Below are positions 971 to 47,590 of a stretch of DNA of 64,000 nucleotides, piece after piece. The position numbers and the translations under genes are program-made. The notes below the pieces were generated by a model, which saw nothing but the letters and a program-made list of their open reading frames with translations, searched no databases and was not told where the DNA came from. The DNA lies in assembly GCA_009780025.1 (NCBI GenBank), contig WRAV01000005.1, positions 1 through 64,000 on the forward strand, given 5' to 3'. This DNA is from Oscillospiraceae bacterium. Lineage in GTDB: Bacteria; Bacillota; Clostridia; Oscillospirales; Ruminococcaceae. The first letter of the stretch is position 1, and every line of letters starts with the position of its first letter.

Positions 971-1795
971 CTAGCCACCCTGCGGCGGCGCCACGAATCC
1001 GGTGGCGAACTTTATCCCCGCGCTGTCCAGGGCTATTTTGAGCTTGTGGCGAACCTCACTGCAGGTTACAAAGTTGTTGGAGATAGAGGCTGTCCAGACA
1101 AATGCGCGCAGCTCCGCGCCGTAGATGCTAAGCCCGCGAACATAGATGGGCACCAGAGGTTCTGCCATATCGTCCGGCCCGCGGGTATCGACATAGTTGG
1201 GGTGGCTGCCCACCACCTCGGCCATGATTTCCATTGCCTTTTCCATGTCGGAGTCGTAGGTTATGGTCACGTCCAGGAAATTGGACGCCCGCTCCTCCAC
1301 TATATTGGAGTTCTCAATCATATCTGTGTTCATTGCCGAGTTAGGGATGATTATCCGGCTATTCATGAAGGTGCGCACCACCGTGTGCCGCAGGGTGATG
1401 TCCTCCACGTTGCCGGTGATATTGCCGTTTACCAGCCGTATCCGGTCGCCGACCTCAAATGGTTTGGAGGCAGAAATCGCCACCCCGCTGATGATATTGC
1501 TCAGCGACTGCTGGGCGGCCAGAGATACACCCAGCGCCGCGATGCCTGAGCCGGTGAGTATAGTGGCAAAGACATTGTCGAAATCTGGTATCTGGTCGAG
1601 GGCAAAGACTGTACCCACAATGTAAATCATTACGAGAACCAGCTTGCGAATAATTAAAAAATGGAGCCTGCCCCCACTTTTCTTGATGACGATGGAGCTG
1701 GCCACCTTGGCAACCGCAATGGTGACCATGAAGATAAACAGCACCCGCACAAGGACAAACTGTGTCTGCGGGGATGTGAAGATTGTCTCAAACAT
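971..1795 (-). CDS. mscS: small-conductance mechanosensitive channel, MscS family
   Basis: A 274-residue MscS-type channel that opens under membrane tension to release solutes in hypo-osmotic shock. Two or three hydrophobic segments fill residues 10-100. The third is the Gly/Ala-rich pore helix (residues about 80-110, GSGIAALGVSLAAQQ), followed by the beta domain (SKPFEVGDRIRL) and an alpha/beta C-terminal domain. Length and order match the short MscS class. Its ATG overlaps the rarA stop codon (TAATG), which implies translational coupling to rarA. A second channel of the other class, mscL, lies at 11.5 kb, so osmotic release is covered twice in the window. Confidence 0.93.
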   Translation of the reverse strand: MFETIFTSPQTQFVLVRVLFIFMVTIAVAKVASSIVIKKSGGRLHFLIIRKLVLVMIYIVGTVFALDQIPDFDNVFATILTGSGIAALGVSLAAQQSLSNIISGVAISASKPFEVGDRIRLVNGNITGNVEDITLRHTVVRTFMNSRIIIPNSAMNTDMIENSNIVEERASNFLDVTITYDSDMEKAMEIMAEVVGSHPNYVDTRGPDDMAEPLVPIYVRGLSIYGAELRAFVWTASISNNFVTCSEVRHKLKIALDSAGIKFATGFVAPPQGG

Positions 1796-3129
1796 TACGG
1801 CTCGTCCTTTCCTATGTGGCTCTGTCTCCAGGTTTGAATTTCCCGCATTCGCTCGATTATGCGGGCCTCTCGCCCCTGGGCGGTGGGGGTATAGTATTCC
1901 CGGCCTTTCAGCTCATCTGGCAGGCAGTTCATATCGGTGATAGCGTCCGCGTGGTCGTGTGCGTATTTGTATCCCTTGCCGTAGTCTAGCTCCTTCATAA
2001 GACCTGTGACTGCATTGCGCAGGTGTAATGGCACAGGCTGAGCAAGCATATCCTGTGCGTCTGCCTTGGCTGCTGCGTAAGCGTTGTCGGCGGCGTTTGA
2101 CTTGGGCGCGAGGGCGAGGTAAATTACCGCATGGCTAAGATGGACATTGCACTCGGGCATACCGAGAAAGTGGCAGGCTTGGTAGGCTGCTATGCTGATC
2201 GCAAGGGCCTGGCTATCGGCAAGCCCCACATCCTCGCTGGCGAAGCGCACCGCCCGGCGGGCTACATAGAGCGGGTTTTCGCCCGCCTCGAGCATTCGGG
2301 CCAGCCAGTAGACCGAGGCTTGCACGTCGCTGTTGCGCATACTTTTGTGCAGCGCTGAGATGAGGTTGTAGTGCTCTTCGCCGGTTTTATCATAGAGTAG
2401 CGACTTCTTGCCGGTACACTGCTCGATTATCCCGTCGGTGACCACTGTGGTTTCGCCCTCCAGCGGCGAGTTTAGCACTATCATCTCAAGGGTCGAGAGG
2501 GCTACACGGGCGTCACCGTTGGCGAATGCGGCTATCATGTTCAGCTGGGAGTCCTCGACGCGGATGTCCTGGTTTCCCAGTCCCTTCTCGCTGGTGACCG
2601 CACTGCGGAGCAGGCCGGCCAGTTGCTGTGTGCCCAGCGCCTGTAGAACGAATACCTTGCACCGAGAGAGCAGCGCCGAGTTGACCTCGAAGGACGGGTT
2701 CTCGGTCGTCGCGCCAATCAGGGTTAGGCTGCCCTTTTCCACGTATGGCAGGAAGGCGTCCTGCTGGGCTTTGTTGAAGCGGTGAATCTCGTCCACAAAC
2801 AGGATAGTGCGCTCGCCCATTAATCGGCTTTTTTCGGCCTGAGCCATCACTTCTTTGATTTCCTTTATTCCGCTGGTGACGGCTGAAAAGTCGACGAACC
2901 GTGCACGGGTCTTGCCCGCTATTATGCGCGCCAGCGTGGTTTTGCCTACGCCTGGCGGGCCCCAAAAAATCATAGAGCTAACCTTGTCCTGCTCAATCAG
3001 CTTGCGCAGAACTTTGCCCTCGCCCAGCAGGTGTTCTTGGCCGACGTAACCTTCCAGGGTGTCGGGGCGCAGGCGGCTGGCAAGGGGACCGTGGGTGGGG
3101 CGGTTATCGAAGAGGGATTGCTGGCTCAT
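1795..3129 (-). CDS. rarA: replication-associated recombination protein A (MgsA/RarA AAA+ ATPase)
   Basis: A 444-residue AAA+ ATPase of the clamp-loader clade that acts at stalled replication forks. Visible elements are Walker A (GPPGVGKTTLARIIAG, about residues 57-72), Walker B (ILFVDEIHRF, about 108-117), sensor 1 (IGATTENPSF) and the C-terminal tetramerisation region with LARMLEAGENPLYVARRAVRFASEDVG. Full length for the family. It is first in a coupled pair with mscS. The repeat-rich gap to polA lies upstream, so its promoter must sit in or beside the repeats at 3130-3340. Confidence 0.96.
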   Translation of the reverse strand: MSQQSLFDNRPTHGPLASRLRPDTLEGYVGQEHLLGEGKVLRKLIEQDKVSSMIFWGPPGVGKTTLARIIAGKTRARFVDFSAVTSGIKEIKEVMAQAEKSRLMGERTILFVDEIHRFNKAQQDAFLPYVEKGSLTLIGATTENPSFEVNSALLSRCKVFVLQALGTQQLAGLLRSAVTSEKGLGNQDIRVEDSQLNMIAAFANGDARVALSTLEMIVLNSPLEGETTVVTDGIIEQCTGKKSLLYDKTGEEHYNLISALHKSMRNSDVQASVYWLARMLEAGENPLYVARRAVRFASEDVGLADSQALAISIAAYQACHFLGMPECNVHLSHAVIYLALAPKSNAADNAYAAAKADAQDMLAQPVPLHLRNAVTGLMKELDYGKGYKYAHDHADAITDMNCLPDELKGREYYTPTAQGREARIIERMREIQTWRQSHIGKDEP

Positions 3130-3179: not shown

Positions 3180-3344
3180 AGGTCCGTTTGTGGGGAACGA
3201 TGGCGATCGTCCCGGCTAATTCTATACGCGAATCGTTGTAGGGGACTATGACAATCGTTCCGCGGGCTTGGTGTTGTAGGGGCGGGGTTCCATCCCCGAC
3301 CGCCACCGCCAGGGTCAAGTTCAAGGTCAAGAGCTTTAGGCCAA
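3180..3344. repeat. GTAG-type palindromic repeat units, left flank of the large inverted-repeat element
   Basis: Two or three short hairpin units lie side by side. One contains GGGGAACGATGGCGATCGTCCC. A second begins GTAGGGGACT. A third, at about 3287-3316, begins GTAGGGGCGGGGTTCC and continues into ATCCCCGACC. The third unit reappears in inverted orientation at about 4084-4113 on the far side of the 643-bp element and again beside its half copy near 16046. No coding sequence is supportable here. Confidence 0.75.
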
Positions 3345-3987
3345 GGTCAAGACCAAATATAGAATCAGCCTGCGGGCTGGGATTATTGTACCGCTCCTGC
3401 CGCGGAGGCACTTACTTTTCTTTGCCTCGCCAAAGAGAAAGTAAGCAAAAGAAAGGCGACTGGGGGAGGACCGGGTCTGACTACTCACAAAGGACGTGCT
3501 CCGCAGACAACTCCCCCAGGCCCCCTCTGGTAGGTCAAGGGCAGGTTGGTGGGGACAGTAGGTTTGCGAACGGACGATACAGCTCCGCAGCCAACGTGTT
3601 CGTCAGTAACGGCGCAGTTTGCAGCAAACACCTCACCGCGAGAATTCCTTACCCCAAACCCGGGCTCGCATAGCGGCTGGGTTAGTTTGCGGGTAGCCAA
3701 GGGCTCGAAGTTCGAAGGCGTCTGCTGTCACTCCCGCCTCTGTTGACAAGATCGGGAGCTCGCGAGAATTACTCACAATCAAACGCTCCGGCTCTCGTTC
3801 ACCTGCCCGTGGAGAGGGGGTCTGGGGGAGTTGAGAGCGAGTGCCTTTCGAGCTCTCCCGGTTCTCCCCCAGTCGCCTTTCTTTTGCTTACTTTCTCTTT
3901 GGCGATACAAAGAAAAGTAAGTGCCTCCGCGGCATGAGCGGTACAATATGCCCAGCCCGCAGGCTGATTCTATATTTGGTCTTGACC
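3345..3987. repeat. 643-bp element with 131-bp inverted arms (copy 1)
   Basis: The left arm (3345-3475) and the reverse complement of the right arm (3857-3987) match at about 95% by eye, with roughly seven mismatches. The arms end in GGTCAAGACC and include the segment TACCGCTCC-TGCCGCGGAGG and the phrase GGCGACTGGGGGAG. The 381-bp loop holds smaller inverted repeats (CTGGGGGAG facing CTCCCCCAG). Another full copy lies at about 46965-47590, reverse-complemented relative to this one, and a half copy at 16076-16435. No transposase or convincing ORF is inside. Frames reading RQRESKQKKGDWGR are open only because the copies are nearly identical. Confidence 0.9.
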
Positions 3988-4040
3988 TGAAGACCTTGAA
4001 CTGGACTTGACCTGGAACTGGACCTTGACCAATCGGCGCG

Positions 4041-4293
4041 TCGAAGTCGCCGCGCCATACAAGGGGTGTCCGTGGAAACTGGGCGGTCGGGGATGGAACC
4101 CCGACCCTACACGGGTGACGTTCGTGGCAACCCGCGGGCGGGAAAATCCCGCCCCTACAACGATTGTTAGGCTTGTGGGGATTTGCGGGACGCACGGGAG
4201 TGCGTCCCCTACAACGACAGGCCTCATGGTAAACCTGTCGGGAACCTCGACCCTATAGCGACAGGTTCGTGGAAAAAGGCAGACCGGCCCCTA
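4041..4293. repeat. array of GTAG-type palindromic units between the large element and polA
   Basis: At least four hairpin units sit in tandem: GGGATGGAACCCCGACCCTAC, GGGCGGGAAAATCCCGCCCCTAC, GGGACGCACGGGAGTGCGTCCCCTAC and one ending GGCCCCTAC. They are linked by spacers such as AACGATTGTTAGG. The last unit supplies the TAG stop of polA. A similar array lies at 47640-47820 on the same relative side of the other full copy of the large element, and the linker GGCTTGTGGGGATT recurs there as AGCTTGTGGGGATT. Confidence 0.8.
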
Positions 4294-6867
4294 CTTCGCC
4301 TCCAACCAGTTGGGGCCGGCCCCAACATCAACCTTCAGCGGCACGCAGAGCTCCATAGCCCCCTCCATTTCTTCTTTGAGCAGAAGGGCAACCTTGTCCG
4401 CCTCGGCGGCAGGACACTCAACTATCAACTCATCGTGCACTTGGAGGATAAGCTTTGCGGCCAGGCCTTCTCTGCGCAGGCGCTCGAATACCTTTACCAT
4501 CGCAATCTTTATTATATCCGCCGAACTGCCCTGTATTGGGGTGTTCATGGCCACCCGCTTGCCGAACTCACGGGTAGGGCGCATAGAGGCGGTCAGCTCG
4601 GGCAGGTAGCGGCGGCGATTCATTAGGGTCTGGACAAAGCCGTGCTCGGTGCCCTGCTCTACGGTGTCTTCCATATACTGGCGCACCCCCGCAAAATTCT
4701 GAAGGTAACCCTTGATATACTGGTCGGCCTCGCTGACGCTAACACCTATATCTTGGGATAGCGAAAATGCCCCAATGCCATAGACAATCCCAAAGTTGAC
4801 CGCTTTGGCCCGCGAGCGCATCACGGGGGTGACCAGCTCGGGCGGCAGGTCAAAGACCTGGGAGGCGGTGCGAGTGTGTATGTCCTCATCATTTGCGAAG
4901 GCTTCAATCATTTGCTTGTCCTGGGCGATATGGGCCAGCACGCGCAGCTCAATCTGGGAGTAGTCGGCGTCCAGCAGGACATTGCCATCCCCGGCCCGGA
5001 AGAACCGACGGAGCTCACTGCCAAGCTCGGTGCGGATAGGGATGTTTTGCATGTTGGGCTCGGCGGAAGAAATCCGCCCGGTGCGGGTGAGTGTCTGCTG
5101 GAAGCTGGTGTGAATCCGACCATTGGGGCTTACGACTTTGAGCAGGCCGTCCACATAGGTAGACTTGAGCTTTGCCGCCTTGCGGTATTCGAGTATGTCG
5201 GCGATAATCGGGTGGATTCCCAGCAAGGACTGGAGCACATCCGCATCGGTAGAGTAGCCGGTCTTGGTTTTCTTCTTGGCGGGCAGCCCCAGTTTTTCAA
5301 AGAGAATTACCCCCAACTGCTTGGGCGAGCCTAAGTTGAACTCTTCCCCGGCGTGGGCGTAGGCACTGCGCTGGTGGCGTTCGATAGCCTCGTCCAGCCC
5401 GTGGCCAAATGCCTCCAGTCCCTGGGTGTCCAAGGCAAACCCAGTGCGCTCCATGTCGGCCAGCACCCGGCAGAGCGGCAGTTCGACCTCGTGGAGCAGC
5501 CGGTACTGCCCAGCCTCTGAGATGCGCTTTTCAAGCTCATCGGCCAGCGCGGGCAGCAGCGCGCAGTCTTCGAGCAGCTCGCCCCATGTGCCGAAAAAAC
5601 CCGCTATGCTCAGCCCTGGGGTATTGTAGGCCGCCGCCAGCCGCTTTATCGAGTAGTCGCTGGAGGTGGGGTTGAGAATATAGCCGGCAATCTCGGCATC
5701 GAGCGCGATGTTTTTTATCTCAAAGCCGTGGGCCAGTGCGAAGTGGTGAAGCTCCTTCAGCCCGCTTGTCCGCTTGGGGGCTGGACTTTCGAGCAGCTGG
5801 CGGGCAGTCTCGGTTGCGCCGGCGTCCCAAAGGCAGACACTGTCGCCAAAAGCAGCGCAGACCGCAGCCACTTCACCTTTGTGTAGGCCAAATAGGACGT
5901 CTATCGGCTTTGTGGACGCAAGCAATTCATCCAGCAGCGGGTTGAATTTGATCTCAAATGGCCGGGCAATCTCGGTCTCTGGGGCGGGGGCGTCCACCTT
6001 CTTGACCCCAAACCGCTCAGTCAGGCTAAACAGCTCGAGGCCACTCATAAGCTCCCAAGCACGGGCGGCGGCGACATTCCCTGGCTTTAGCTGTTCGAGG
6101 GTGAGCTCGAGAGGAGCACGGCAGTCTATAATAGCCAGCTCCCGGCTGAGGTAGGCGAGCTCTTTGCCGGTGCGCAGTTTTTCCCGCAGGCTGTCGCGGA
6201 TAGCCAGCTCGTCCAGGTTTTCATAGATGTTGTCAAGGCTGCCGTGTGCCTGCATCAGGCTCAGAGCGGTCTTCTCGCCCACACCGGCCACACCGGGGAT
6301 GTTGTCCGAGGAGTCTCCCATCAGCGCCTTCAGGTCGATTAATTGCGCCGGTATAAGGCCATATTTTTCGTTTACGGCAGCGATGTCTATGATGTCGGCT
6401 TGCGGGCGCCCACCTTTTGTATAGGCCAACCGCACAGTTGTAGTCTCGCTGACCAGCTGGAAGGAGTCCCTATCCCCGGTGGCAATCACGCACTCGGCGC
6501 CTTCAGATCCCGCCATGCAAGAAAGGCACCCAAGCAGGTCGTCGGCCTCGTAGCCCTCCCGCTCGACAATCATAAACCCTAGCGCTGTCAGCAAGTCTTT
6601 TAGCGGTTGCAGCTGCCGGGCAAGGTCGTCAGGCATACCTTTGCGGGTGGCCTTGTAGCCCTCATACAGCTTGTGCCGAAATGTTGGAGCGCGCAAGTCA
6701 AATGCCATAGCCACGCAGTCGGGCTTAGTTTCCTGCAACAGGCTATGCAGAATTGAAAGGAAACCGTATATGCCGTTTGTCGGCATACCGTCCCGGGTGG
6801 ACAGCGCCCGGATACCGTAATAGGCCCGGTTGAGGATGCTGTTTGCGTCTATTGCGAGTAGCTTCAT
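4291..6867 (-). CDS. polA: DNA polymerase I
   Basis: An 858-residue family A polymerase used for gap filling and Okazaki-fragment processing. The N-terminal 5'-3' exonuclease domain (residues 1-290) shows AIDANSILNRAYYG, GYEADDLLG and GDSSDNIPGVAGVGEKTA. The middle domain (about 300-470) lacks the acidic residues of a 3'-5' proofreading site, as in Bacillus-type Pol I. The polymerase domain has motif A (LLDADYSQIELRVLAH), motif B (RSRAKAVNFGIVYG) and motif C (LQVHDELIVE). The C-terminus (GPNWLEAK) is typical, so the TAG stop is genuine although it is part of a GTAGGGGCC repeat unit. Confidence 0.98.
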   Translation of the reverse strand: MKLLAIDANSILNRAYYGIRALSTRDGMPTNGIYGFLSILHSLLQETKPDCVAMAFDLRAPTFRHKLYEGYKATRKGMPDDLARQLQPLKDLLTALGFMIVEREGYEADDLLGCLSCMAGSEGAECVIATGDRDSFQLVSETTTVRLAYTKGGRPQADIIDIAAVNEKYGLIPAQLIDLKALMGDSSDNIPGVAGVGEKTALSLMQAHGSLDNIYENLDELAIRDSLREKLRTGKELAYLSRELAIIDCRAPLELTLEQLKPGNVAAARAWELMSGLELFSLTERFGVKKVDAPAPETEIARPFEIKFNPLLDELLASTKPIDVLFGLHKGEVAAVCAAFGDSVCLWDAGATETARQLLESPAPKRTSGLKELHHFALAHGFEIKNIALDAEIAGYILNPTSSDYSIKRLAAAYNTPGLSIAGFFGTWGELLEDCALLPALADELEKRISEAGQYRLLHEVELPLCRVLADMERTGFALDTQGLEAFGHGLDEAIERHQRSAYAHAGEEFNLGSPKQLGVILFEKLGLPAKKKTKTGYSTDADVLQSLLGIHPIIADILEYRKAAKLKSTYVDGLLKVVSPNGRIHTSFQQTLTRTGRISSAEPNMQNIPIRTELGSELRRFFRAGDGNVLLDADYSQIELRVLAHIAQDKQMIEAFANDEDIHTRTASQVFDLPPELVTPVMRSRAKAVNFGIVYGIGAFSLSQDIGVSVSEADQYIKGYLQNFAGVRQYMEDTVEQGTEHGFVQTLMNRRRYLPELTASMRPTREFGKRVAMNTPIQGSSADIIKIAMVKVFERLRREGLAAKLILQVHDELIVECPAAEADKVALLLKEEMEGAMELCVPLKVDVGAGPNWLEAK

Positions 6868-16075: not shown

Positions 16076-16435
16076 GTCAAGTTCAAGGTCTTGATTTTGA
16101 TTCGCCTACGGACGAGGATAATGTACCGCTCCTGCCGCGGAGGCACTTACTTTTCTTTGTCTCGCCAAAGAGAAAGTAAGCAAAAGAAAGGCGACTGGGG
16201 GAGTTGTTTGCTCCAAGTTCAGTCGCAAACAACTCCCCCAGACCCCCACTAGTAGATCAAAAACAGGTGGGTGTGGGCGGCAGGTTGGTTCTATAGATGA
16301 TACAGCTCCGCAGCCAACATGTTCGTCAGTAACTGCACAGCCAGCAGTGAGTACCTCACCGCAAGAATTCCTTACTCTAAACCCGAGCTCGCATAGCGGC
16401 TGGGAAAATTCGCGGGCCGCCAACGGCTTAAATTC
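16076..16435. repeat. half copy of the large inverted-repeat element (copy 2)
   Basis: Contains the left arm (TACCGCTCCTGCCGCGGAGG through GGCGACTGGGGGAG) and about half of the loop, including CTCACCGCAAGAATTCC and CTCGCATAGCGGCTGGG, but no right arm. A private hairpin, GTTGTTTGC facing GCAAACAAC, follows the arm. Homology stops at about 16435, where a stretch resembling the 3' end of a gene begins. Confidence 0.85.
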
Positions 16436-46964: not shown

Positions 46965-47590
46965 TCGAGGGCTGAATTTTGATTCGCCTTCGGGCGGATA
47001 TAATGTGCCGCTTATACCGCAGTTACACCTACTTTTCTTTGTCTCGCCAAAGAGAAGGTAAGCAAAAGAAAGGCGACTGGGGGAGAACCCTCGCAAGCAA
47101 GCTTGCTAACTCCCCCAGGCCCCCTCTCCAAGAGCAGGTGAGCGAGAGCCAGGGCGTCTGCCCGTGTGTAATTCTCGCGAGCTCCCGACTTGCCAACAGC
47201 GGCAGGAGTAACAATAGACGCCTTCTAATTTCAGCCCTTGGCCACCGGCGAACCTACCCAGCCGCTATGCGAGCCCAGGTTTAGAGTAAGGAATTCTCGC
47301 AGTGAGGTGCTTACTGCTGACTGTGCCATTGTTGACGAACACTGTCAGATTCGGAGTGGTATCGCCCATGAACCTGACTACCGGCCCCGGTTACCTGCCC
47401 TTGACCTACCAGTGGGGGCCTGGGGGAGTTGTCTGCGAAGCACGTCCTTTGTGCGTAGTCAGACCCGGTCCTCCCCCAGTCGCCTTTCTTTTGCTTACTT
47501 TTCTTGGCGAGACAAGAAAAGTAAGTGCCTCCGCGGCATGAGCGGCACATTATCCTCGCCCGTAGGCGAATTAAAATTCAGACCTTGAAC
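46965..47590. repeat. large inverted-repeat element (copy 3, opposite orientation)
   Basis: Reverse-complement homologue of the element at 3345-3987 over its whole length, including both arms (TACTTTTCTTTGTCTCGCC and its mirror ending GGAGGCACTTAC) and the loop motif CAGCCGCTATGCGAGCCC. The outermost arm parts (GATTCGCCT with mirror AGGCGAAT) differ from copy 1 yet remain complementary to each other and are shared with copy 2. Arms diverge more here (about 85-90% by eye). Confidence 0.88.

Follow-up and report, generated by a model that had tools for sequence, protein, structure and literature searches.

A dispersed inverted-arm DNA repeat with candidate intrastrand-triplex modules in a bacterial genome and its relatives in other phyla

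Intrastrand triplex motifs, which include the PIT elements, BoxC and TM_ECO, have been described from H. influenzae and other organisms (Holder et al., 2015, PMC4666352), and the earlier list of H. influenzae motifs by Hoyne et al. (2000; cited in PMC4666352) may already include the module described here. The repeat under study resembles these motifs in its Y-loop-R-loop-RH order with a mirror third strand (class II), as well as in its high copy number, patchy occurrence, inverted pairs, link to instability and lack of a nearby transposase (PMC4666352). It differs from TM_ECO, which is G/C-rich (CCCTCNCCC...), in being A/T-rich, in having a covarying loop-tail lock and in being embedded in giant hairpins of 430-720 bp. 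The TM_ECO/BoxC pattern CCCTCNCCC-N3-6-GGGNGAGGG-N3-GGGNGAGGG had no match in the window or in the stretches of the source genome that were examined. A TM_ECO-like sequence, CCCTCTCCCTCTGGGAGAGGGCTGGGGTGAGGG, lies in the giant-hairpin loop of an element in Variovorax (L246).

REPINs, BIMEs and GTAG-tagged REPs (PMC3116915, PMC3733652) are likewise extragenic palindromic units that form inverted doublets and occur many times per genome, and RAYT-like genes, scoring below the model cut-off, are present in the source genome. Unlike REPINs, the present units measure about 120 nt rather than 20-40, the whole element reaches 0.5-0.7 kb, the GTAG foot is missing, and a Y1 gene is not always found in the carrier genome. 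Bacterial MITEs are also non-coding and dispersed and have inverted ends. Here, in contrast, the arms are far longer, the stretches examined yielded neither a related transposase nor a target duplication, and sites are stable in the strains compared. The view of the initial annotation that the element is unlike an ordinary MITE is supported.

The window is a stretch of 64,000 nucleotides on contig 5 of the source genome (2.06 Mb, 72 contigs). Copy 1 of the element lies between genes for a RarA/MgsA-type ATPase and DNA polymerase I (Table 1). Its inverted arms, annotated as 131 bp at about 95%, are real: each is 132 nt long, they are 95% complementary, and they are spaced 381 nt apart. Folded as single-stranded DNA, the 643-nt unit reaches -243 kcal/mol, against -102 +/- 5.7 for shuffled sequences (z -24.5), and chance is therefore excluded. 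A second full copy, previously placed at 46965-47590, is indeed present in inverted orientation with 83% identity, and the half copy was recovered as well. The ORFs inside the copy 1 unit gave no credible Pfam match, in keeping with the earlier reading that the unit is without a coding ORF.

Table 1. Positions of the element copies and of the parts of copy 1 in the window.
Feature	Position	Strand	Remarks
Complete element, copy 1	3345..3987	.	Between polA (4291-6867, -) and rarA/mgsA (1795-3129, -)
Left arm, copy 1	3344..3475	+	132 nt, 95% complementary to 3857-3988
Right arm, copy 1	3857..3988	-	95% complementary to 3344-3475
Degenerate 6-nt tandem repeat (GGTCAA), left edge of copy 1	3313..3351	.	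Tandem Repeats Finder, low score 32
Degenerate 6-nt tandem repeat (GACCTG), right edge of copy 1, inverted relative to left	3992..4030	.	Tandem Repeats Finder
Hairpin A, left (TCAGCC-TGC-GGGCTGG)	3365..3380	+
Hairpin B, left	3411..3445	+	Y strand 3411-3424, loop 3425-3430, R strand 3431-3445
Third purine block AAAAGAAA, candidate reverse-Hoogsteen strand	3447..3454	+	Mirrors R strand in most units
Loop-tail lock S2	3427..3459	+	TCGCC 3427-3431 pairs with GGCGA 3455-3459
G/C-rich hairpin C	3462..3527	+	GGGGGAG 3462-3468, CTCCCCC 3511-3517, mirror block CCCCCTC 3521-3527; direct reading
Right-arm hairpin B, third block and lock, inverted	3873..3921	-
Complete element, copy 2	46983..47570	-	Inverted relative to copy 1
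Half copy	16101..16428	+	Left arm and part of loop; no right arm

A BLAST search of the unit against its own genome, the copy count called for by the initial annotation, returned 107 matches, and related elements occur in other phyla, so the copies of the window are not the only ones. Over the genome stretches examined, 91 arm ends and 21 complete pairs were counted, and the genome is estimated to carry roughly 55-70 elements. The element is thus a high-copy, dispersed, non-coding, intergenic repeat. It accounts for many assembly breaks in the source genome, where 31 of the 144 contig ends lie inside a copy. Short derivatives joined at CTCGCC microhomology (e.g., at C7:21481 and C52:9842) and a palindrome derivative (C31:19337) are also found. 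A pair of arms 2.4 kb apart on contig C23 was considered as an autonomous form and rejected, as the enclosed genes appear SpoVA-like by eye. Spore-germination domains encoded in the host DNA suggest a spore-forming, Clostridia-like host.

From the outside inwards, an arm is made up of hexamer repeats, hairpin A, TGTACCGCTCATGCCGCGGAGGCA, hairpin B together with the third purine block and the tail that belong to it, and a G/C-rich hairpin, the last of which is present in 31 of 76 arms. Degenerate hexamer repeats lie on both sides where the arms end, and repeats of the same kind are seen outside most arms. Hairpin A occurs in compensated versions (TCAGCC..GGGCTGG, TTCGCC..GGGCGAG and TCTGCC..GGGCAGG). 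Hairpin B, which was not found in the diverged left arm of copy 2, has a 14-bp pyrimidine:purine stem conserved across phyla, and the end of its loop is complementary to the 4-5 bases that follow the third block, forming the loop-tail lock. The small nested inverted repeats pointed out earlier do matter.

Most of the structural tests rest on author-selected sequences. In a set of 20 author-chosen units of equal stem length, whose rows are not independent, the 17 pairs of stem and lock are 98.5% paired, with changes on both sides at six pairs (33 doubly changed cells), and the covariation value is 0.257, compared to 0.056 when shuffled (0/500) and 0.053 or less when slid. A less selected check of the lock took all 42 distinct loop/tail pairs among the pattern matches; 24 of them have 4/4 pairs, while 5000 shuffles gave a mean of 7.5 and a maximum of 16. 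The third block mirrors the R strand with a mean run of 7.07 in 14 unit types, likewise author-chosen and not independent, against 6.03 when shuffled, and 0 of 5000 shuffles were as good. Mirror runs span 5-11 nt in 12 of these types (5 in the left-arm type of copy 1) and 3 nt in the two shortest (G005a and G005b). In addition, the purine strand and the third block change together, as in AAAGAAAA/AAAAGAAA, AAAAAGAAA/AAAGAAAAA, AAAAGAAA/AAAGAAAA and others. Pyrimidine, purine and mirror purine blocks thus follow one another on one strand, the arrangement of a class II intrastrand triplex motif. Judging from the sequence, a third strand that turned back alongside the hairpin would reach as far as the loop, which is where the tail pairs, so that both features would fit a single fold. 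Formation of the putative triplex would be in competition with the canonical 14-bp stem, whose five basal pairs would need to open to provide the turn, and hairpin B alone folds only slightly more stably than shuffled sequences (z about -1.7 to -2.2).

An exact 28-base pattern of hairpin B matched at least 119 stretches in named genomes, with carriers among the matches listed in Pseudomonas, Stutzerimonas, Ralstonia, Paraburkholderia, Xanthomonadales, Comamonadaceae, Haemophilus, Selenomonadaceae and a Thermodesulfobacteriota MAG. Many flanks keep the order of small hairpin, hairpin B, CAAAAGAAA and GGCGACC or a variant, and in about twenty matched stretches an inverted second arm follows within 380-720 bp, forming giant hairpins. 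Two inward-facing modules over 430-720 bp are found in Pasteurella, Haemophilus, Ralstonia, Paraburkholderia, Variovorax and Xanthomonadales; the module is also present in Negativicutes and the Thermodesulfobacteriota MAG. Within the family of the window, two genomes carry variant modules (G005, with 47 pattern matches, and G011, with 5). An 18-base pattern occurred patchily, in 9 of 249 Pseudomonadota genomes (one with 41 matches) and in 4 of 249 genomes of the window's own phylum, which is a lower bound, given that in the source genome itself only 2 sites matched. E. coli had no match. The hairpin A region of a Pseudoxanthomonas right arm (L157; GTGCCGCTC-GCCGCGGAGGCA) is almost the same as the corresponding region in the window, and an internal motif, AACTCGCTGCGCTCA(A/G)ACAG, is common to element interiors in Haemophilus, Ralstonia and Variovorax (L149, L137 and L246). 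This motif is a likely source of spurious ORFs of the LFERSEF type, and the element is probably behind some spurious small-ORF annotations. A literature search for the core sequence and for LFERSEF returned nothing relevant.

The data on site stability and on exchange come from Paraburkholderia, not from the source genome. Paraburkholderia caribensis and a relative carry 84-103 arms per large replicon, and a flank comparison of 61 complete copies revealed that nearly all compared sites are common to strains. At 15 shared sites the flanks are mostly 98-99% identical, whereas identity between the bodies lies at 0.889-0.988 (mean 0.937); at about two thirds of these sites a copy at another locus matches the body equally well or better, and one pair is inverted. 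One locus was followed in seven strains, in two of which the element is inverted. The Paraburkholderia copies are therefore undergoing concerted evolution rather than active transposition. Of the earlier suggestion that it could be a mobile element, active mobility is not supported in this one clade, whose strains were compared. The segment between two neighboring elements appears rearranged, and probably inverted, between Paraburkholderia strains (L298 compared to L266/L277).

The initial annotation also proposed that the two arms of a copy evolve together. This applies locally, as the outer hairpins of copy 2 are both TTCGCC and those of copy 1 both TCAGCC, and as the arms in strain MBA4 at the locus followed in seven strains are 95.9% alike, compared to 81-86% in the orthologs, which indicates arm conversion. 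It was rejected as a rule: arm likeness is 0.870 within copies and 0.872 between copies in the source genome (20-21 complete pairs), and 0.852 and 0.868, respectively, in the 61 Paraburkholderia copies. The two arms of a copy thus resemble each other no more closely than arms taken from different copies do, and so exchange is genome-wide.

The repeat is also a target of insertion sequences. In two Paraburkholderia replicons, six of the seven copies of an IS256-family element (L280, L283, L288, L289, L301 and L315) lie in or at these repeats, which make up ~1% of the sequence; one of them interrupts the loop of hairpin B and another the third block, with possible 8-bp duplications (AAAGAAAG and GGCAAGTA). 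A 1.98-kb Paraburkholderia unit that was considered as an autonomous form proved to be an element copy holding the IS256-family element. An IS66-like insertion (L291; identity by eye) lies exactly in the hairpin B loop.

In combination, the sequences give about an even chance that the element is a large foldback DNA repeat, built of intrastrand-triplex motifs and homogenized at the DNA level. With two inward-facing folding modules in its inverted arms, one strand could fold into a giant hairpin. Each module would fold by itself, as a pyrimidine:purine hairpin with a third purine strand lying back along it (a class II intrastrand triplex), and the tail would base-pair with the hairpin loop to close the fold. 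Such a fold may form as DNA once the strand is exposed, for example in replication, and the folded modules may make the copies prone to recombination and hence homogenized. A non-autonomous process presumably gave rise to the copies, the genome having no recognizable dedicated transposase. A broader and more tentative proposal is that selection maintains the pan-bacterial triplex-hairpin module with its covarying lock, as the core of a separate class of foldback repeats that are both spread and homogenized via folded single-stranded DNA, independent of any known transposase family.

Mobilization in trans has also been considered. A large REPIN/BIME-like non-autonomous element could be moved by a Y1 (RAYT-type) transposase that recognizes single-stranded end hairpins, and two inverted hairpin units do combine here into one hairpin, as in REPINs (PMC3116915). 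The source genome encodes two RAYT-like genes (L103:1336-1863 and L104:1348-1791; NF047646 65 and 59 bits, under the cut-off of 80), and GTAG-tagged hairpins adjoin many copies. However, the element flanks neither Y1 gene, sites are stable between strains, and 6 of 20 carrier genomes, some of them drafts, have no Y1 match, including Quinella (8 exact modules) and a Haemophilus genome. The module also has no GTAG foot (0 of 91 arms read), the GTAG hairpins occurring as separate neighbors, and this origin is considered fairly unlikely. REP-like hairpins with the GTAG tag (e.g., window 3276-3300) number 99 in 324 kb of the source-genome stretches examined, compared to 0-2 for control tetranucleotides. 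Derivation from a DDE transposon, as a MITE-like element with unusually long inverted ends that is now extinct in most hosts, would agree with those ends, with the intergenic dispersal and with the patchy distribution in which some genomes are high-copy. This origin is unlikely, as no transposase was found between the arm pairs read in the source-genome and Paraburkholderia stretches examined, clear secondary insertions aside, no shared target-site duplication was evident in the flanks of the 61 Paraburkholderia copies, no empty site was found, and the copy ends grade into degenerate hexamer repeats with no sharp stop.

The initial annotation had offered a mobile element, a structured RNA and a DNA device as alternatives, of which structured DNA is the best supported. 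A structured RNA, or a bidirectional terminator or mRNA-stability element working as a transcript, would be consistent with the intergenic position, with the strong RNA fold of copy 1 (-417 kcal/mol) and, by crude gene calls, with convergent gene pairs being common around Paraburkholderia copies (21/38) and divergent pairs rare in the source genome (1/16). On the other hand, the Rfam covariance-model search gave no match to the element, only weak small stems and no strong U-run terminator were seen, copy numbers are very uneven among genomes, and RNA does not form triplexes of the purine-motif type (PMC4666352). Stem S1 mismatches in two families comprise 7 G-T and 9 A-C, few in number and with no G-T excess, and nothing in this test therefore supports an RNA role. 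A 3'-UTR element was likewise rejected, as single modules have no orientation bias relative to genes, and action as a transcript appears quite improbable. Selectively neutral debris, kept solely through palindromic-DNA conversion with the folded state irrelevant, is the least probable of these explanations and very unlikely: concerted evolution alone accounts for the homogeneity within a genome, but neutral within-genome conversion does not predict a 14-bp stem, a third block and a covarying lock kept across phyla.

Intrastrand triplex motifs lack a clear biological role, even though thousands of genomes have been catalogued for them. A repeat whose stem, third strand and lock vary together from phylum to phylum would offer comparative evidence that the fold matters as DNA. 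With tens of copies per replicon that stay at stable sites, swap sequence, invert and attract an IS256-family insertion sequence, it also provides a natural test bed.
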